Positions 1,479-63,962 of a stretch of 64,000 bases of DNA are shown piece by piece; the stretch's first letter is position 1; every line of letters begins with the position of its first letter. The stretch lies in the NCBI RefSeq assembly GCF_902729405.1, contig NZ_LR746496.1, positions 3,968,001 through 4,032,000 of the forward strand, in the 5' to 3' direction. Source of the stretch: Acididesulfobacillus acetoxydans. Lineage in GTDB: Bacteria; Bacillota; Desulfitobacteriia; Desulfitobacteriales; Desulfitobacteriaceae. Under the pieces are notes generated by a model. That model was not told the origin of the DNA and made no database searches. It saw nothing but the letters and a program-made list of their open reading frames with translations. The translations under genes were made by a program, and so were the position numbers.

Positions 1479-4021
1479 CTATACGGTGTACCCGTCAAAG
1501 GCAGACTGGTTCTGAATTTGCCGTCCAAGCGGCGATAAGCACAAGCCACCGCCGGAGCCACCGGAATAGAGGCGATCTCCCCGACCCCTTTCGCCCCGTA
1601 AGCCAAAGGAGACGGATTCTTCTCGATGATCAGTACTTCTGTCTCCGGCATGTCCGTGGATCTGAACAACCCCAACGTGGCAAATTTGGCCGTCGGAACC
1701 CCTTGGCGCAAAGGAAACTCCTCCCGCAGAGCAAAACCTAACCCCATGGCAATACCGCCTTCCACCTGCCCTTCCACCGCTTTGGGATTGATGGCCCGGC
1801 CCACATCATGCGCGGCGATCACTTTGACCACGCGTCCCGTCTCGTCCAAAATCACGACATCGGTCGCATAGCTATAAGCGACATGATTCACGGGATGGGG
1901 TTTATCCGCATTCAGAACATCCGTAATCCCCGAATATTCCCCTTCATAAACGGCGCCCTCCAACTCCGCCAGAGACTTGTGGTTCATATCCTGCTGCAAT
2001 TTGAGGGCTGCTTGGCGGGTCGCCTCCCCAGTGAACAGGGTCTGACGCGAGGCGGTTGTCGTCCCGGCATTCGGGGTGAGGAACGTGTCCGGGGGGGTGA
2101 CCTCTATCAGCCCCGGCGCCAGACCGGTCGCTTCGCTGATGATCTGGGTCACAATGGTGGCCAGGCCTTGACCGATACAGGCCGCACTCGTATAGGCGAA
2201 GACCCGGCCCTGTGCCACTTTAAGTTTAATCCGGCCAACGTCCGGCAGTCCGACGCCAATCCCGGTATTTTTGAGGGCACAGGCGATTCCGGCATAAGGG
2301 CTGGATTCATACGCTTCCCGGACCGCCAAGAGGGTCTCTTTAATGGCGGTGCCCTCGTCGCAAATCTGACCCGTCGGATTCTCCTTGCCCGCTTCCAGAG
2401 CATTGCGCCAGCGCATCTCCCAAGCTGAGATGCCAACTTTCTCCGCCAGCAGATCCATATTGCCCTCACAAGCGAAAGCCGATTGCGGCACCCCGAAGCC
2501 ACGGAAAGCCCCCGCCGGGGGGTTATTCGTGTAGACACAGTACCCGGTAATGTCCACATTGGCTATTTCGTAAGGCCCGCCGATATGGGTACAGGCGCGC
2601 TGCAGAACCGCCGTGCCCAGCGAAGCGTAAGCCCCGGTATCGGCCGTGATCCGGGCGACCAGTGCCGTAAGTTTTCCCTCTGCGTCACACCCCGTCGTCA
2701 AGTCCAACTCCATCGGATGCCGCTTGGGATGAACCATCATGCTTTCCTGACGGCTTAGGGTCAGTTTCACCGGTTTACCGGTCTTCAGGGCCAACAAAGC
2801 CGCATGATGCTGTACGCTCAGATCTTCTTTCCCACCGAAGCCCCCTCCCACAAATTTACTGACAATGCGCACTTTTTCAGGAGGAAGGGCCAGGATCGAA
2901 CAAATGCCGTGCAGATCATCATAAACCCCTTGGTCGGCCACGTACACCGTGACTCCGCCGTCATGATCCGGCTCCGCCAGGGCACTCTCCGGCTCCATGA
3001 AAGCATGCTCCGTCGGCGGTGTCGAATAATGCTGGGTGACCACATAAGCCGAATGTGACAAAGCCTCCTGCGCGTTTCCCCGTTCCACTCGCGTGGTGCT
3101 CAACAGGTTGCCCTTCGGGTGGATTTGGGCCGCCCCTTCCCTCAATGCTTCCGCCGGGCTGAGCACAGGTTCCAGTTCATCATATTCGAACTTAATCAGC
3201 TTTAGAGCCTCCCGGGCTGCCTTTTTCGAACGGGCTGCCACCAGAGCCAAAGCATCACCGACGTAGCGGGTTTCTTCTCCCACTGCGACCAAAGTCGGCC
3301 AGTCGTGAATAATATGCCCGTGGTAACGCTCACCTGGAATGTCATCGGCCGTCAAAACCGCTTCCACTCCCGGAAAGGCCCTGGCCGCCTCCGTAACCAG
3401 CGTCTTCAGCAGAACCCTGGGGGCCGGTGAACGCAGTACAGCCCCGAAAAGCATCCCCTCCCGGTACATATCGTCGACATATTCCGCCTCGCCCAAGGTT
3501 TTCGCCCGAGCATCGACCCGATGAAAGTTGGCGCCGATCCCGCTTTTAACAGGAGCCGTCCCGAAAGCTGACTCTCCGCGCAGGGCCTTGCCGGCCAGGA
3601 GAATTCCCTGCTCTATTTTGACATATCCGGTGCAGCGGCACAAATTCGCCCGTATCCCGTCTTTAATGTCTTGCGGCGAAGGGTCCGGGTTCCTGTCTAA
3701 AAGGGCCTTGGCACTCATCACCATCCCCGGAGTACAAAAGCCGCACTGAACCGCCCCGACTTCCGCAAAGGCCCAGCTGAAGACTTCTTTCTCTTTCTCG
3801 GACAATCCGTCCGTCGTCATCAGCTCTTTCCCCTCAACCTTGCCTGTCGTCAGGCGGCAGGCCCGCATGGGCTTTCCGTCAACCAGAATCGTGCAGGCGC
3901 CGCATACCCCTTCGCCACAGCCGTTCTTGAGCGAAGTCAAATGCAAATGATCCCGCAAAAACTCCATCAGATTCATGTCTTCATCTGTGGCATAGCTCTT
4001 ACCGTTTACACTGATGTTCAT
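1373..4021 (-). CDS. Fused [2Fe-2S]/molybdopterin xanthine dehydrogenase (XdhD-like)
   Basis: 882 residues. Residues 1-150 are a two-cluster [2Fe-2S] domain: a plant-ferredoxin-like part with CGEGVCGACT and a second part with CGFCTPGMV and CRCTGY. The rest is a molybdenum-cofactor-binding subunit (GGGFGGKED, GAFRGFGVPQ, GVGEIASIP; the Glu of GVGE is the family catalytic base). There is no FAD domain, so electrons must leave to a partner, possibly the YgfK-type flavoprotein. The architecture matches E. coli XdhD and clostridial selenium-dependent hydroxylases. In the pathway it would hydroxylate or reduce purines. The natural end is probably near LPLTGTPYS; about 34 further residues are translated from the 59-bp repeats. 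Gene order after hyuA and before xdhC agrees with the function. Confidence 0.92.
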   Translation of the reverse strand: MNISVNGKSYATDEDMNLMEFLRDHLHLTSLKNGCGEGVCGACTILVDGKPMRACRLTTGKVEGKELMTTDGLSEKEKEVFSWAFAEVGAVQCGFCTPGMVMSAKALLDRNPDPSPQDIKDGIRANLCRCTGYVKIEQGILLAGKALRGESAFGTAPVKSGIGANFHRVDARAKTLGEAEYVDDMYREGMLFGAVLRSPAPRVLLKTLVTEAARAFPGVEAVLTADDIPGERYHGHIIHDWPTLVAVGEETRYVGDALALVAARSKKAAREALKLIKFEYDELEPVLSPAEALREGAAQIHPKGNLLSTTRVERGNAQEALSHSAYVVTQHYSTPPTEHAFMEPESALAEPDHDGGVTVYVADQGVYDDLHGICSILALPPEKVRIVSKFVGGGFGGKEDLSVQHHAALLALKTGKPVKLTLSRQESMMVHPKRHPMELDLTTGCDAEGKLTALVARITADTGAYASLGTAVLQRACTHIGGPYEIANVDITGYCVYTNNPPAGAFRGFGVPQSAFACEGNMDLLAEKVGISAWEMRWRNALEAGKENPTGQICDEGTAIKETLLAVREAYESSPYAGIACALKNTGIGVGLPDVGRIKLKVAQGRVFAYTSAACIGQGLATIVTQIISEATGLAPGLIEVTPPDTFLTPNAGTTTASRQTLFTGEATRQAALKLQQDMNHKSLAELEGAVYEGEYSGITDVLNADKPHPVNHVAYSYATDVVILDETGRVVKVIAAHDVGRAINPKAVEGQVEGGIAMGLGFALREEFPLRQGVPTAKFATLGLFRSTDMPETEVLIIEKNPSPLAYGAKGVGEIASIPVAPAVACAYRRLDGKFRTSLPLTGTPYSRGQKSEAGGQNEGKMTEAGTEVRSQRPEVRTRGK

Positions 4022-4170: not shown

Positions 4171-4362
4171 CGTTCTCCTTCCGACCTCTGACCTCTGATT
4201 TGACCTCAGGCTCTCTTATTTTCCCTAGTTCCGACCTCCGACCTCCGACTTGGCCTCAGGCTCTCTTATTTCTCCTCGTTCCGACCTCTGACCTCCCACT
4301 TCTGTTTTGACCTCAGGCTCTCTTATTCCCCCCCGTTCCGACCTCTGACCTCCGACTTCTGA
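4171..4362. repeat. Degenerate minisatellite between the dehydrogenase gene and hyuA
   Basis: Three to four imperfect units of about 55-62 bp built from TTCCGACCTCTGACCTC, GACTTCTG and GACCTCAGGCTCTCTTATT. The right end runs into the 3' end of hyuA and supplies its last ~15 residues (RSRRSEVGTGGNKRA). It fills most of the 291-bp gap to the next gene. Confidence 0.85.
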
Positions 4363-22983: not shown

Positions 22984-23625
22984 TCAACCTTTTTCTCCTT
23001 CCTGCTCATGTTTACAGTGGGCACAGCGGTGTCCGGCCTCATGCACGGCGCGTTCCGCCGCCTTAAGGATATTTTGATACCCGGTGCAGCGGCAGAAATG
23101 GCCGGACAGTTCCCTTTTTATCTCTTCCCGGCTATATTCTTTGCCGTTCTCGACCATAGCGGTCGTCGAAAGCACTAAACCCGGGGTGCAAAATCCGCAT
23201 TGAATCGCCCCCTCTTCCACAAACGCCTCCTGAACCGGGCTCAGCTTGCCGTTGACGGCAAGTCCCTCAACAGTCCTGATCTCCTTGCCATCCGCCCAGA
23301 CGGCGAGATAAATACAGGAATCAATGGGGGTGCCGTCGATGAGCACCGTGCAGGCTCCGCACTCTCCGACCCCGCAGCCCTTCTTGACCCCGGTATAGCC
23401 CAAACGCTCTCTCAACACCTCGAGCAGAGACTCCCTAATATCCACGTGCAAAGTCAATGCCTTGCCGTTCACTGTGAGAGATATCTGGCGTAATACCTTT
23501 TCCGGAACCATCCTTTTATCCGACATTCTCTTTACCTCGGACATTCTCTCTGCCTCGGACATTCTTTCTGCCTCCGGCATTTCCTCTGCCTCGGGCATGC
23601 TCTTAACCTCAGACATGTTCTTCAC
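22984..23625 (-). CDS. xdhC: Xanthine dehydrogenase [2Fe-2S] subunit
   Basis: 213 residues if read from 23625. The core has both clusters: GCGVGECGACTVLID for the ferredoxin-like site, and CGFCTPGLVL with CRCTGYQN for the second. It passes electrons from the molybdenum subunit to the FAD subunit. Residues 1-39 are a six-residue repeat, (M)SEAER and variants, coded by 18-bp tandem repeats that each hold an ATG with GAGG before it, so the true start is ambiguous. The conserved part begins near KVLRQISLTVNGK. If started at 23625 it overlaps xdhB by 17 bp. The E. coli-style symbol denotes the Fe-S subunit, not the XdhC chaperone. Confidence 0.9.
   Translation of the reverse strand: MKNMSEVKSMPEAEEMPEAERMSEAERMSEVKRMSDKRMVPEKVLRQISLTVNGKALTLHVDIRESLLEVLRERLGYTGVKKGCGVGECGACTVLIDGTPIDSCIYLAVWADGKEIRTVEGLAVNGKLSPVQEAFVEEGAIQCGFCTPGLVLSTTAMVENGKEYSREEIKRELSGHFCRCTGYQNILKAAERAVHEAGHRCAHCKHEQEGEKG
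23511..23616 (-). repeat. 18-bp repeats forming serial ribosome sites and start codons
   Basis: Six units of six codons, MSEVKS, MPEAEE, MPEAER, MSEAER, MSEVKR, then MSDKR-M. Each unit has an in-frame ATG with GAGGCAGAGAGA or a close variant just upstream, so each could start translation of the Fe-S subunit. Confidence 0.85.
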
Positions 23626-24493
23626 CTCCGGCCGTCCGCATTGCCTCTTTCAGCGCCCTGGGGACCAGTTCCGCCACCAGATGTTCCCGGTACTCTTTAG
23701 AAGCCCGCCAGGACGTCCGGGCCTTGGCCGACCTGACCGCTAACTTGCCGATTTCCTCCAGAGTCTCGTCAGAGCCGGTTTTTCCTTCCGCAAAGGCCTC
23801 CGCTTCCGGGCAGCGGACGGGAGTCGGGGCGGCGACCCCCAAAGCGATCCTCACTCCGCTTAAGACCCCCCCGGCCTCAACCCGGCAAAGTACGCTTACC
23901 CCTAAAGTGGCGATATCCATCGCCTTACGCATAGCAAATTTAATATAATGTCCATGATAGCCCAGGTAGTCCTGCGGGCGAACTATGATCCCAATCAGAA
24001 GTTCTCCGGGCCGCAGATCCACCTTGCCGGGACCGAGATAAAATTCCCTTAGCGGCACTTTTCTCTCACCCCCAGCACTTTGCAGCCTCAACTCGGCGTT
24101 GAGCGCCAACAGAGTGGGAGCACTGTCGGCTGACACCGCGCCGTTGCAGATATTGCCGCCGATAGTCGCGATGTTGCGAATTTGCGGCCCTCCCATCGAG
24201 ACAGCCGCCTGGATCAAAACAGGAATCGCTTTTTGCAAAAGCGGATCCCCGGCGATTTGCGCGAACGTAGTCAGGGGCCCTAGGAAGATCGCCCCGTCCG
24301 CGGTGCGCTTAATTCCAGTCAGTTCTGCCAGGCCGCGGATGCTGAAAAGCTCTGCTTCTCCCATCTTCCCGTTTTGCATCTTGATCAGGACATCCGTCCC
24401 CCCGGCAATGACTTTCGCTGCCGGATGGCCGGATAAGAACGCCAAAGCCTCGTCCAGACTGCCGGCCTCATCATACTTAGCAATATTAAACAA
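23609..24493 (-). CDS. xdhB: Xanthine dehydrogenase FAD-binding subunit
   Basis: 294 residues of the FAD-binding subunit of molybdenum hydroxylases. FAD contacts are seen in VIAGGTDVLIKM near residue 31 and TIGGNICNGAVSADSAP near residue 110. It hands electrons from the [2Fe-2S] subunit to NAD+ or another acceptor. Order xdhA-xdhB-Fe-S subunit with 18-bp spacing and a short overlap marks one operon. Length is typical. Confidence 0.95.
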   Translation of the reverse strand: MFNIAKYDEAGSLDEALAFLSGHPAAKVIAGGTDVLIKMQNGKMGEAELFSIRGLAELTGIKRTADGAIFLGPLTTFAQIAGDPLLQKAIPVLIQAAVSMGGPQIRNIATIGGNICNGAVSADSAPTLLALNAELRLQSAGGERKVPLREFYLGPGKVDLRPGELLIGIIVRPQDYLGYHGHYIKFAMRKAMDIATLGVSVLCRVEAGGVLSGVRIALGVAAPTPVRCPEAEAFAEGKTGSDETLEEIGKLAVRSAKARTSWRASKEYREHLVAELVPRALKEAMRTAGGEEHV

Positions 24494-24511: not shown

Positions 24512-26803
24512 CTAACCCACGATTCCGGATTCCCGCAGCTTTTCAAATACCCTTTGGGGATTCATCGGCAAACGGTTGAAAGCTACGCCGGTCGCGTCCA
24601 ACACCGCGTTGCGAATGGCGGGAGCCGGAGTAATGGCGGGTGGTTCGCCTAAAGACTTCACTCCGAAAGGTCCCGTCGGATCATCAAGTTCAACAAAAGC
24701 GGCTCCTATCTCCGGGGTATCCATAATGGTGGGCAATTTATAATCCAACAGATTGTTGTTGAGCACCCGGCCCGTCTTCTCATCGTAGAGCAGCTGTTCA
24801 GACAGCGCATAACCGATACCCATGCTCACACCGCCGTGAACTTGTCCCTCGGCCAGCTGCGGATTGATGATCCGGCCTGAATCATGCACATTGTAAATCT
24901 CCAAAACTTCCACCTTGCCCGTCTTCAGGTCAACCTCAACTTCGGCAAAGGTCACCCCGTAAGACATGGCATTGACGCGTGCGTTGCTGCTCGTATCACT
25001 CGTGATCGGGTGAGCAAAAACCGGATCATAGTATGTCTGGAGGGCCACCTCCGCCAAAGGCATCAAAACCTCGCCGGAATGTTTGTAGACCACATTCTGC
25101 CCTTTCAGATCGAGCATTCCGGCCGGAGTGTCAGTCATACCCCAGACAAAATCCAAGATTTTGGCTTTCACCTCTTCCGCCGCTTTCTTGACTGCCATCC
25201 CGCTGATATAAGTCTGCCGAGAAGCGTAGGCCCCGGTATCGAAAGGACTGACATCCGTATCCTGAGTCGAAATCACGTGCACCATAGCCAGAGGCAGACC
25301 CAAAACTTCCGCTGCCATCTGACCGAACACCGTATCGCTGCCCTGCCCTATTTCGGTAGCTCCCACTTGCAATTGGACCGAACCGTCCTGGTTGAGCACG
25401 ATCCGCGCTCCCGCTATCTCCAGGTTCACGGGGTGAGTTCCGGATTGATAACTGAAACAGGCCATACCCAGCCCCCGGCGTTTATCTCCGCTCTGGTTCT
25501 TATACAACTTTTTCTTCTGATCCCACTTTATCATTTCCCGGCCTTTGTCAACACATTCGCGGATACCGCAAGACAGCACCTTATTCTTTCCGATCGGGTC
25601 GACAAAACCGGTTTCCACGAAGTTCATTTTGTGCAGGGCGATCGGGTCCAGACCGAGGCCCCGGGCAATATCCTCCATGTGACACTCAAAAGCGTAGAAG
25701 ATCTGCGGCGTCCCGTAACCGCGCATGGCCCCGGCCACGGGCAGATTGGTATAAACGGTCACCGGTTCATATTTGAGGGCGTCTACCTGATAAAGGTAAC
25801 GGAATTTGCCGCCGCCGCTGCTGGCAATCGAGTGCCCGTGGGAAGCATAAGCCCCCGTATTGGAGATCGCCTCGATCCGGATACCGGTTATTTTTCCGTC
25901 CCGCTTTACCCCCGTCTTAATCCGGTACTTAATCGCGTGCCGGGTCCGGGTATCAATCATACACTCCTCCCGGGACAGCTCCAGGCGCACCGGCCTTCCC
26001 CCCACCGCCAGGGTCATCGCCGCGGCCAAAGGTTCCACACAGACATCCTGCTTGTTACCAAATCCCCCGCCGATGCAGGGTTTCAAGACCCGAACCTTGC
26101 CCCAGGGTATTCCCAAAGCCTGGGCCACAATCCGGCGTACAATATGCGGAATCTGAGTCGAAGTCGTGATCACGATCCGGCCGTTTTCATCCACCTGGGC
26201 CGTGGCAATCTGATTTTCCAGCTGGCAGTGCTGGACTACGCTCGTCTGGTATTCCCCTTCAAAGATCCGGTCCGCCTCCGCAAAAGCCTGATCCAGATCG
26301 CCGAATTCATAGCCGAAAGTCGACAGGATATTGCGTTTCGCCTCGTGAATCAGAGGGGCGTCTTCCCGCATGGCCGCTTCGGGGGAAGTTAAAACTTCCA
26401 GAGGTTCATATTCTACCTCGATCAGTTGCAGGGCCTTTTCCGCGATGAGTTCACTTTCAGCCACCACGGCTGCCACCGCATCCCCGACAAAACGGGCCTT
26501 ATCCGTCAAAATCAAGCGGTCCTCCTTGTCTCTGTGCCCGGGGTCCAAAGAATAGGGATGCCCTGCCGTCGAGAATTTTAGGTGGGGGACATCCGCGTAA
26601 GTGAGCACCGCCTCCACTCCGGGCAGAGCTCTCGCCTGCTCGCTGTGAATTTGACGCACCCAAGCATGGGCATAGGGACTGCGCAAGATTTTCCCCACCA
26701 GCATATCCCTCTCGCGGAAATCAGCGGTGTATTTCGCTTTGCCGGTCACCTTAGCCACCGCGTCCACTCTTATTTCTCTCTGTCCCACCGTATTGTAGGC
26801 CAT
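24512..26803 (-). CDS. xdhA: Xanthine dehydrogenase molybdopterin-binding subunit
   Basis: 763 residues. The N-terminal a/b-hammerhead domain (AKVTGKAKYTADF) is followed by the cofactor-binding domain with GGGFGNKQDV, GAMRGYGTPQ, GQGSDTVFGQ and the catalytic-Glu motif KSLGEPPAI near the C terminus. It hydroxylates hypoxanthine or xanthine. First gene of the xdhABC-ygfK group; a near-perfect sigma-54 promoter lies about 260 bp upstream. The 250-nt leader contains a 14-bp direct repeat TCCTCACGCTTGCA (26968-26981, 26986-26999) and no gene. Confidence 0.95.
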   Translation of the reverse strand: MAYNTVGQREIRVDAVAKVTGKAKYTADFRERDMLVGKILRSPYAHAWVRQIHSEQARALPGVEAVLTYADVPHLKFSTAGHPYSLDPGHRDKEDRLILTDKARFVGDAVAAVVAESELIAEKALQLIEVEYEPLEVLTSPEAAMREDAPLIHEAKRNILSTFGYEFGDLDQAFAEADRIFEGEYQTSVVQHCQLENQIATAQVDENGRIVITTSTQIPHIVRRIVAQALGIPWGKVRVLKPCIGGGFGNKQDVCVEPLAAAMTLAVGGRPVRLELSREECMIDTRTRHAIKYRIKTGVKRDGKITGIRIEAISNTGAYASHGHSIASSGGGKFRYLYQVDALKYEPVTVYTNLPVAGAMRGYGTPQIFYAFECHMEDIARGLGLDPIALHKMNFVETGFVDPIGKNKVLSCGIRECVDKGREMIKWDQKKKLYKNQSGDKRRGLGMACFSYQSGTHPVNLEIAGARIVLNQDGSVQLQVGATEIGQGSDTVFGQMAAEVLGLPLAMVHVISTQDTDVSPFDTGAYASRQTYISGMAVKKAAEEVKAKILDFVWGMTDTPAGMLDLKGQNVVYKHSGEVLMPLAEVALQTYYDPVFAHPITSDTSSNARVNAMSYGVTFAEVEVDLKTGKVEVLEIYNVHDSGRIINPQLAEGQVHGGVSMGIGYALSEQLLYDEKTGRVLNNNLLDYKLPTIMDTPEIGAAFVELDDPTGPFGVKSLGEPPAITPAPAIRNAVLDATGVAFNRLPMNPQRVFEKLRESGIVG

Positions 26804-34877: not shown

Positions 34878-35010
34878 CATCTGAGAGCTGTCACTGTCTT
34901 CCTCCTCAGCTCATCCCGTTGTGCCGGCAGCCCGAACTTACGCTTGGACCCCCACAAGTCACGCCGGTATCCGGTCCAAACCAAACTCGGACCCATGCGC
35001 AGTCTCCAGC

Positions 35011-35163
35011 CATCCTGTCCCCGGACCCATGCTGTTCCGGACCCACGCTGCCCCCGGACCCACGCTGTCCCCGGACCATGCTGTCCCCCAACCATGCTGT
35101 CCCCCAACCACGCTGTCCCCCAACTCATCCTGTACCCAGGCCCATCCTGTACCCGGATCCATG
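35011..35163. repeat. 16-17-bp tandem repeat between tetR and the ABC operon
   Basis: About nine units of the form CCCACGCTGTCCCCGGA / CCATGCTGTCCCCCAA. It fills much of the 34522-35275 gap together with the two operators; a second, looser repeat (TTTCGCACCCCCGACTTTCTTG) lies at 34571-34635. No gene seen. Confidence 0.85.
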
Positions 35164-35275
35164 CTTCCGCATGCCTATCCGTAAATGCCTGTCTCATGCT
35201 GACTTTAGCTTAAGTAAGGGCTCAGGCCTAGGCTCCGACCCACGTTAAAGCCCCCGCTCACGCCCTGCCTGAGCC

Positions 35276-54988: not shown

Positions 54989-55257
54989 CCTTGCCCGGGC
55001 GTCTGCCTTGCCCGGGCGTCTGCCTTGCCCGGGCGCCTGCCTTGCCTTAGCGTCTGCCTTGCCTTGGCGCCTGCCTTGCCTTAGCGTCTGCCTTGCCTTA
55101 GCGCCTGCCTTGCCTTGGCGCCTGCCTTGCCTTAGCGTCTGCCTTGCCTTGGCGCCTGCCTTGCCTTAGCGTCTGCCTTGCCTTAGCGTCTGCCTTGCCT
55201 TAGCGTCTGCCTTGCCTTAGCGTCTGCCTTGCCTTAGCGTCTGCCTTGCCTTAGCGT
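54989..55257. repeat. 17-bp tandem array within the PTS operon
   Basis: About 16 units of CTTGCCTTAGCGTCTGC, with variants CTTGCCCGGGCGTCTGC and CTTGCCTTGGCGCCTGC. It lies between the IIC stop (55404) and IIA start (54923); the rest of the gap is GC-rich with no gene. Confidence 0.92.
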
Positions 55258-55403
55258 CACTTCTGTCTTTGCGTCAGACTCCTCCGGGTGTCGCAGCCAA
55301 TCTTTCGAACCATATCCCCGCCGTTTAGCGTAAAGCCGGCGAACTTTTCCCGGACTTCTCCCGCAGCTTTCCGGGACTTCTCCGGGAACTTTTCCGCCAC
55401 TTC

Positions 55404-62237: not shown

Positions 62238-63962
62238 ATGAGTTTACACCCCACGTTCTCACCCGTAAAGAACTTCGCACAACGCCGGGTATGGTCGCCC
62301 CTGAAGGACTTTACCCTGCACGAGGCATGGTTACCCTTGAAAGACTTCACTCTGCACGAGGCATGGCTGCCCCTGAAAGACTTCACCCGTCATCAGGTAT
62401 GGTTTCCGCTGAAAGACTTCGCTCGGCATGACCTGTTGCCACCGCTGAAAAACTTCGCCCGGCACAGGGTATGGTCACCGTCGAAGGCCTTTGTCATGCG
62501 CCGGGTAACTGTGTCGCATCCGGCTCAAGCGCCAAAGAAGTTAGCTCAGACCGAGACGCGGAAAAAAATCAACCTATTTTTCCGCCAGTACCCCAAAAAC
62601 CTATCCTGGAAATCTCCCCCGATCATCGCCGGCCTAACGGCTCTGGCCCTCCTCGGCGGCGGACTCACCTATTACTTCTCGACCACAACTGCAGCGGTGG
62701 CCGTGATGGTCAACGGTCAGCAAATCGGCCTGGTTAGCAATATCCAAGCCGGCAGGAACCTCGTTCAAACGGCACTCGCCCGGCAGGGCCGGCCATTCGG
62801 GCTCATCGCCAAGACCCACGATCAGATTACATACACGAACCTCCGGGTCAATCGGGCACTATACCTCAAGTCAGAAGTAGGCGAACAAGCCCTGGAAAAC
62901 AAGTTGAGTTTCTACCTCAACGGCTATGCCCTGGAAACTAACGGCAGCGTGATCGCGGTGCTGCCCAGCAAAAACGATGTGGAAAAAGTCCTGCAAGAAT
63001 ATCGGGATCATTATGTGGTGCCGGGCCAGGATAACAACGTGACCACCGTCGCTTTTGCCGAAAACGTAAACATCCAAGAGGAAAACGTTCCGCCCAGCCG
63101 GGTGGAAACCCCCGCTCAAGTCCTCAAGACGCTGATTGACGGCAAAACCACCACCACGAATTACACCGTCCAACCTAAAGATTCCTGGTGGCTCATCGCC
63201 CGCAAAAACAATATGCTGACTGATGAGGTTCTGGCCGGCAATCCGGGAGCCACCAAAAACACCAAGCTGCATCCCGGGCAGGTCATTAAACTGGTCGACG
63301 TGGAGCCTTATCTGACGGTAGTGAGCAAGGGGACCTATACCGGAACGGAAACCGTTCCCTTTGACGTCGTGACTAAGACGGATTATAATCTCGCCCCCGG
63401 CCAAACCTCCATCCTCAAACAGGGCAGCAACGGCGCCGTCTCCATCACCTATTCCTACGTACAAAAGAACGGCATCGATACCTCGAAGAAGGTACTCAGT
63501 GAAAAAATTCTTAAGCATCCTGTGAGCCAAGTCATCGCCAAAGGCCCCAGCCGGGGTCCCATAAGCGTCGCTTTTGCAGCCTCCCGTGGCGGCACCGGTT
63601 CGTCCAATATTGTCGATCGCGCGCTCAGTTACGTCGGGGCACCCTACGTCTTCGGCGGTACCAATCGCAGCGGCTTTGACTGCTCCGGTTTCACCAAGTA
63701 CGTGTATGCACAGTTCGGTGTGTCCTTGCCGCGCACATCTTTCGAACAGTTTGACTCCGGGACTCCGGTGAGCATGGATAACCTCCAGCCTGGCGATTTG
63801 GTGTTCTTCACCACCTACGCCAGGGGCGCGTCTCACGTCGGCATTTACATCGGAGGCGGCCGCTTTGTCCAAGCCGCCAACCCAAACAGCGGCGTCGAAG
63901 TGTCAAATCTCGGCGACAGGTTTTACTCCTCCCGCTATCTGGGAGCCCGTCGCTACAATTAG
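62238..63962 (+). CDS. NlpC/P60 peptidoglycan endopeptidase with LysM and G5 domains
   Basis: 574 residues from ATG 62238 (AAAGGTG nine bases upstream; GTG 62226 also in frame). The N terminus, before the membrane helix (PPIIAGLTALALLGGGLTYYFS, ~130-150), is a run of 12-residue repeats such as LPLKDFTLHEAW. Outside the membrane: a DUF348-like region (VMVNGQQIGLVSNI), a LysM (NYTVQPKDSWWLIARKNNM ... HPGQVIKLV), a G5 domain (PYLTVVSKGTYTGTETVPFD) and a C-terminal NlpC/P60 domain with Cys in FDCSGFTKY and His in ASHVGIYIGGG. It cuts peptide stems of peptidoglycan. Two basic-rich stretches precede the helix. Confidence 0.92.
   Translation: MSLHPTFSPVKNFAQRRVWSPLKDFTLHEAWLPLKDFTLHEAWLPLKDFTRHQVWFPLKDFARHDLLPPLKNFARHRVWSPSKAFVMRRVTVSHPAQAPKKLAQTETRKKINLFFRQYPKNLSWKSPPIIAGLTALALLGGGLTYYFSTTTAAVAVMVNGQQIGLVSNIQAGRNLVQTALARQGRPFGLIAKTHDQITYTNLRVNRALYLKSEVGEQALENKLSFYLNGYALETNGSVIAVLPSKNDVEKVLQEYRDHYVVPGQDNNVTTVAFAENVNIQEENVPPSRVETPAQVLKTLIDGKTTTTNYTVQPKDSWWLIARKNNMLTDEVLAGNPGATKNTKLHPGQVIKLVDVEPYLTVVSKGTYTGTETVPFDVVTKTDYNLAPGQTSILKQGSNGAVSITYSYVQKNGIDTSKKVLSEKILKHPVSQVIAKGPSRGPISVAFAASRGGTGSSNIVDRALSYVGAPYVFGGTNRSGFDCSGFTKYVYAQFGVSLPRTSFEQFDSGTPVSMDNLQPGDLVFFTTYARGASHVGIYIGGGRFVQAANPNSGVEVSNLGDRFYSSRYLGARRYN
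62256..62490 (+). repeat. 36-bp (12-codon) in-frame repeats in the wall-hydrolase gene
   Basis: Six to seven units of the pattern W-x-P-L-K-[DN]-F-[TA]-x-H-x-[AV], for example WLPLKDFTLHEA repeated. They encode a cytoplasmic N-terminal segment. Confidence 0.88.

Follow-up and report, generated by a model that had tools for sequence, protein, structure and literature searches.

A candidate natural multi-start minisatellite at the xdhB/xdhC junction of Acididesulfobacillus acetoxydans

The 5' end of xdhC in Acididesulfobacillus acetoxydans is built of six in-frame 18-bp units (23521..23628, minus strand), each of which carries GAGG 8 nt before an ATG. Positions are those of the window, the whole 64,000-nt stretch of DNA that was analysed. 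TRF, reading of the frame and sequence shuffles confirmed that this six-ATG array is real and non-random. The preferred explanation, to which we give close to an even chance from sequence comparison and an engineered analogue, is a natural multi-start minisatellite, born from the start segment of the gene in the ancestor of the genus, in which the first ATG would be dominant and the array would be a tolerated by-product.

Read from ATG 23616, the likely start that lies farthest upstream, xdhC (22984..23616, minus strand) encodes the Fe-S subunit of xanthine dehydrogenase. The protein scores 252.5 bits against NCBIfam NF043084 (cut-off 217) and contains Pfam domains Fer2 and Fer2_2, that is, two [2Fe-2S] domains. 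Upstream on the same strand are xdhB, encoding the FAD subunit (23609..24493; NCBIfam NF043083, 409 bits), and xdhA, encoding the molybdenum subunit (24512..26803; NCBIfam NF043082, 1217 bits), and a ygfK-like gene (TIGR03315) lies downstream. All three genes of this xdhABC cluster exceed their NCBIfam cut-offs and adjoin one another, in agreement with the preliminary description, which had assigned the repeat to the Fe-S subunit gene. The xdhB stop codon (23609..23611, minus strand) falls within the array, so that xdhB and the start of xdhC overlap by 8 nt (ATGTCTGA), an arrangement also seen in relatives (TTGTTTAA). When the junction was folded as RNA (z -2.65), part of the first Shine-Dalgarno (SD) site and the AUG paired in a weak hairpin, which is compatible with coupling to xdhB.

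The six ATGs follow one another on the minus strand, in the xdhC frame, at exact 18-nt steps (first bases 23616, 23598, 23580, 23562, 23544 and 23526), and the units occupy 23628-23611, 23610-23593, 23592-23575, 23574-23557, 23556-23539 and 23538-23521. GAGG-N8-ATG is present in 6/6 of these in-register units, with an SD-SD distance of 18 nt. TRF called the repeat at 23522-23616 (period 18, 5.3 copies, 77% matches). Chance periodicity was rejected, as dinucleotide shuffling of the 320-nt region, repeated 5000 times, never gave a run of more than three ATGs at exact 18-nt steps (longest run 1 in 4515 shuffles, 2 in 474 and 3 in 11), against the six observed. The original observation of serial ATG and GAGG start signals in an in-frame 18-bp repeat is thus upheld, with six units at exact 18-nt steps and sites spaced as the native site is. 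Its boundaries, given as 23511-23616, do enclose the array, but ATG 23511 sits 15 rather than 18 nt beyond its predecessor and is without GAGG, and the stronger site belonging to the first ATG (GGAGGTGA, 23629-23622) falls outside them. Similarly, the unit does begin with ATG as had been proposed, but within the ATG-first unit GAGG falls in codons 3-4 instead of at the end. ATG 23511 belongs to the degenerate end of the array (23497..23520, minus strand), where no GAGG stands upstream of it and the predicted duplex with the anti-SD tail of the ribosome reaches only -3.6 kcal/mol.

The units lie head to tail in an open frame with a period (18) that is a multiple of three, as expected of an in-frame coding minisatellite. 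The array resembles such minisatellites of bacterial genes in its tandem 18-bp units, its preserved frame and its species-variable copy number, and differs from others in that the unit bears the gene's own ribosome site and start. A phase-variable contingency locus that switches frame was rejected because an 18-bp unit keeps the frame. In the phase-variable lic-type loci of Haemophilus, repeat number selects a start codon by frame switching; xdhC shares with them 5'-end repeats affecting starts, but its 18-bp unit cannot switch frame.

Comparison with 28 orthologs (L001-L028) indicates how the array arose. It is absent from 26 of them and present in A. acetoxydans and its sister species. The distance from the xdhB stop to the cysteine anchor of XdhC is 112 nt in 25 of the 28 and 109 nt in one; in A. 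acetoxydans it is 232 nt and in the sister 310 nt, corresponding to 40 and 66 inserted codons, respectively, at the 5' end of xdhC. A start codon is found at -5 from the first base of the xdhB stop in all 28 (TTG in 26, ATG in two), the ATGs being those of the array species where array-less relatives have TTG. Protein alignment, together with the stop-to-anchor distance, places the relatives' TTG start opposite a GTA (Val) codon in both array species (23494..23496, minus strand, in the window), the ancestral start having been lost there. Since the TTG aligns with GTA and the stop-to-anchor distance has lengthened, insertion of the repeat shifted the xdhC start to a place farther upstream of the fold.

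The array is likely to be a tandem duplication of xdhC's own SD and start segment. The first repeat unit agrees with the native segment CCGGAGGTGAAGAACATG at 14 of 18 nucleotides and the other four agree with it at 11 to 13, and one array-less relative (L003) has an identical GGAGGTGAAGAAC ahead of its TTG. The likeness of this segment (unit 0) to the unit consensus is 11/18, a value that other gene starts attain in 4% of cases; because these are equally unit-like, duplication is likely rather than proven.

A broader set of 110 loci was also surveyed, from which 20 were dropped for want of a cysteine anchor with an open upstream frame. Among the 62 measured loci of L031-L110, a set that shares genomes in part with the orthologs above (L003-L028 with L031-L054), the start was at -5 in 44 and at -1 or +2 in 14. 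Three loci with long distances and no start at the overlap (L039, L053 and L101; 401, 205 and 613 nt, respectively) and one with a short distance (L087, 22 nt) probably had the wrong stop or frame assigned.

Clear differences in predicted strength exist among the ribosome sites. The native SD site of the first ATG, GGAGGTGA (23622..23629, minus strand), forms a duplex of -13.8 kcal/mol with the anti-SD tail, and its GGAGGTG is likewise present in relatives without the array. The five downstream SD sites pair over 4-5 bases only, giving -5.9 to -9.5 kcal/mol. By medians they rank between ordinary internal ATGs (-3.8 kcal/mol, n = 1599) and the first starts of ORFs (-8.1 kcal/mol, n = 226), the latter being starts of longest ORFs and hence a proxy.

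A man-made device provides the closest comparison. In the report by Zhang et al. (2022, PMC9723656), tandem in-frame RBS-start units placed before GFP in Bacillus licheniformis raised output up to five-fold. Output rose with unit number to six and was then flat, and there was one protein band per unit, every start being used in this host. The best SD-start spacing was 8 nt, and benefit was obtained only at SD-SD distances of 15 to 21 nt. A GTG or ATG start codon was required, and weaker SD complementarity gave less output. The device also functioned in Bacillus subtilis and Corynebacterium glutamicum. In Escherichia coli DH5alpha only the last site was used, and in BL21(DE3) the first and last, so the host matters. 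A. acetoxydans belongs to Bacillota, the phylum of Bacillus. Mutual exclusion of starts 18 nt apart by the size of the ribosome was considered and dropped, because engineered sites 15 to 21 nt apart were all used. A study on silk in Bacillus megaterium found slightly lower titres with three or six units in tandem (PMC10821235).

The xdhC array matches the device (PMC9723656) in having an in-frame SD and start repeated before a single gene, with 8-nt spacing, an 18-nt period and six units. It is natural and its starts are putative, whereas the device is man-made, has hairpin-borne SDs and demonstrably uses every start in B. licheniformis; the downstream SDs of xdhC are also weaker, and its array overlaps the stop of an upstream gene. 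Because the layout matches that of a working device, several starts are probably used in A. acetoxydans. XdhC would then probably form an N-terminal ladder dominated by the first start, and a dose effect of the putative extra starts is plausible.

The same ribosome sites can be read in another way, namely that ribosomes start nowhere but at the first ATG, the later ATG and GAGG being simply codons of a tolerated Met-Ser-Glu-Ala-Glu-Arg repeat. This plain coding minisatellite is a serious though rather unlikely alternative. It fits with a first site that is far stronger than the rest (-13.8 against -5.9 to -9.5 kcal/mol) and conserved in position. Against it stands a layout that would suit the engineered device, all of whose starts were used (PMC9723656), and, weakly, codon choice: the Glu codon is GAG in all six units, which are related to each other, compared with 77 GAG and 84 GAA among nearby Glu codons. 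It is very improbable that the array acts mainly as an untranslated spacer, with initiation confined to the last start (23526, 23511 or later). E. coli DH5alpha offers a precedent for this with the engineered device (PMC9723656), and relatives need no tail; however, a strong conserved site precedes the first ATG, and ATG 23511 has no SD.

The sister species shows what becomes of the starts where the array persists. Its in-register start positions read ATG, ATC, ATG, CTG, CTG, ATG, ATG, ATA and ATG, so that ATG is found at five of nine; GAGG precedes two of these five, and GAAG replaces GAGG in five units. The sister array is therefore longer and yet carries fewer start signals than that of A. 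acetoxydans. Since ATG is retained at 5/9 positions and GAGG at 2/5, the number of starts has not been maintained in the genus; judged on the sister, sites have not been kept where the array has been kept, as we would expect of a functional array under selection. It had been suggested that gain or loss of units would change the number of starts while preserving frame, and that this could set the dose of the subunit. The suggestion is partly supported: the sites are in frame and unit number does differ between the two species (40 and 66 inserted codons), but the longer array has fewer starts. Because the starts of the sister have decayed while its tail persists, the feature reads as a tolerated by-product.

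A natural counterpart of the engineered leader, namely a heritable rheostat built by slippage and neutral to frame, with unit number setting ribosome loading and the amount of XdhC and an N-terminal ladder as its signature, is doubtful. Still less probable is a rheostat kept by selection, in which slippage would adjust unit number to set the level of XdhC relative to XdhA and XdhB. The growth of engineered output with units to six (PMC9723656), the species-dependent copy number and the occurrence of the pattern in one of 45 family genomes are in its favour. The sister, however, has more units and fewer usable starts, and since XdhC acts together with XdhA and XdhB in one complex, a surplus of XdhC by itself would seem to serve no purpose. 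Selection is unlikely to have kept a dosage dial across the genus, because the sister combines more length with fewer start signals; the sister does not support dosage control of that kind.

Constraint on the encoded peptide was assessed among six regular units of A. acetoxydans and eight of the sister, irregular last units being excluded. Third positions account for 94 of 180 pairwise differences between units in the sister (p = 0.005), 33 of 72 in A. acetoxydans (p = 0.18) and 270 of 548 in the pooled comparison (p = 0.015), and pN/pS among units is 0.35 to 0.40. The third-position excess suggests coding constraint on the repeat peptide, tandem units not being independent of each other. Units of both species have the peptide pattern M/L/I-S/P-E-A/V-E/K-x in common. 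Structure prediction for 14 sequences was poor (mean pLDDT 59.6) and favours no reading. The unit comparisons fit translation from the first ATG only, as sister units retain the peptide pattern while losing ATG or GAGG, the third-position excess and decay of starts in the sister fit a purely coding repeat, and the pN/pS value agrees with one. These comparisons could also be taken to mean that the repeat peptide is itself functional and under selection, for example as a charged tail aiding assembly, and both the significant excess in the sister and the shared pattern point that way. We regard this as improbable: the tail is absent from the other 26 orthologs, its length differs by 26 codons between sisters and repeat homogenisation complicates the use of pN/pS.

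Both species of the genus are rich in tandem repeats. TRF found 54 arrays in 400 kb of the A. acetoxydans genome (71 in 464 kb including the window) and, for the sister, 63 in 280 kb, compared with five and six in 200 kb each of two relatives; that is, 135 and 225 arrays per Mb versus 25 and 30. The density in the genus samples is thus five to nine times that of the two related genomes, and a trait of the genus in repair or replication may lie behind it. Across 744 kb of both species there are 134 arrays. ORFs of at least 150 aa contain 43 of them, 12 of which are within the first 60 codons, a stretch that makes up 16% of codons. As the genus is repeat-rich, the birth of the xdhC array needs no special cause. 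A repeat-rich genus also speaks for a plain coding minisatellite, and the period is divisible by three in 30 of the 43 ORF-internal arrays, against 39 of 91 outside or straddling ORFs.

Several other repeats were seen in these genomes. An in-frame 36-bp array at 62288-62479 (PLKDFTLHEAW units, approximately five copies) is near the N terminus of an NlpC/P60-G5-LysM protein and has more copies in the sister (L147, 13672-13941). Arrays of 7-bp sub-units (TCTGACC, TCCGACC) are found at or near ORF ends at 1333-1480 and 4175-4361, and TCAGAAG/TCAGAGG heptamers similar to these sub-units recur in the sister (L154 and L155). A 17-bp unit repeated 15 times with 93% matches (54999-55258), a period that is not a multiple of three, lies partly within a predicted ORF. 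A second 17-bp array, of approximately nine copies (35010-35165), is within a 154-aa ORF that may not be a gene, because this period breaks the frame. CRISPR-like repeats spaced by approximately 66 bp were present in A. acetoxydans (L142, 45-6058; shared part GTTTCAATTCCTCATAGGCAGGCTATCGGC) and in the sister (L158, 18182-18606).

Surveys with fixed patterns yielded no second clear case at a gene start for the 18-nt GAGG and AGG, 21-nt and 15-nt forms, patterns that are blind to arrays with other spacings or start codons. Three GAGG-N8-ATG at 18-nt steps occurred in one of 45 family genomes, that of A. acetoxydans, and not in the sister. The looser AGG form at 18 nt was found in four of 398 phylum genomes including A. 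acetoxydans (one match in the reversed control). Of the other three, one is 259 codons inside an ORF, one is in a short frame consisting only of repeat and one lies close to the start of an ORF of 97 aa that matches no Pfam family, where three AGG-N8-ATG stand at 18-nt steps (L181, genome G149, approximately 1497-1560, minus strand). This last, the only other match near an ORF start, is probably due to chance. The 21-nt form was absent from 82 genomes with AGG at spacing 7 and from 249 genomes with GAGG at spacing 8 (three reversed-control matches, in one genome), and the 15-nt form from 249 genomes.

Literature searches on starts made by repeats returned only work on mammalian cells, unrelated work on yeast and the silk study (PMC10821235). 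The array is akin to bacterial alternative N-terminal proteoforms (PMC13245402, PMC11005335) in having several in-frame starts a few codons apart; PMC13245402 uses neither the term 'tandem start' nor 'repeat'. Comparative proteomics of A. acetoxydans has been published (PMC10949509; dataset PXD045135), and the main text of that article contains neither 'xanthine' nor 'N-terminal'. Only initiation at the first ATG (23616) or upstream of it can yield the tryptic peptide SMPEAEEMPEAER.

Taken as a sequence of events, the multi-start minisatellite would have arisen in frame where xdhB and xdhC meet, in the ancestor of the genus, most likely, to judge from likeness, by tandem duplication of 18 bp containing the SD site and start codon of xdhC. 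Ribosomes, probably coupled to termination of xdhB, would initiate mainly at the first ATG, which has the full GGAGGTGA site and the ancestral overlap. Several of the five GAGG-N8-ATG sites farther downstream may be used to a lesser extent, as their sequence and the engineered precedent suggest. The product, on the same grounds, would be a ladder of XdhC forms that are alike except for a charged tail preceding the Fe-S fold, and a larger number of putative starts may increase the output of XdhC. Most of the extra starts have decayed in the sister while the tail has persisted, consistent with a by-product of a repeat-prone genome, not conserved control.

A serial-start reading is plausible for A. 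acetoxydans. If the extra starts work, a device reported by engineers in 2022 would already exist in nature, and slippage could grow or shrink the array without breaking the frame, making it an evolvable dial for protein dose, unlike on/off phase variation. If the extra starts are idle, the array would still be a clear minisatellite that copies a start signal and shifts the start of a gene, with the ancestral state visible in relatives.
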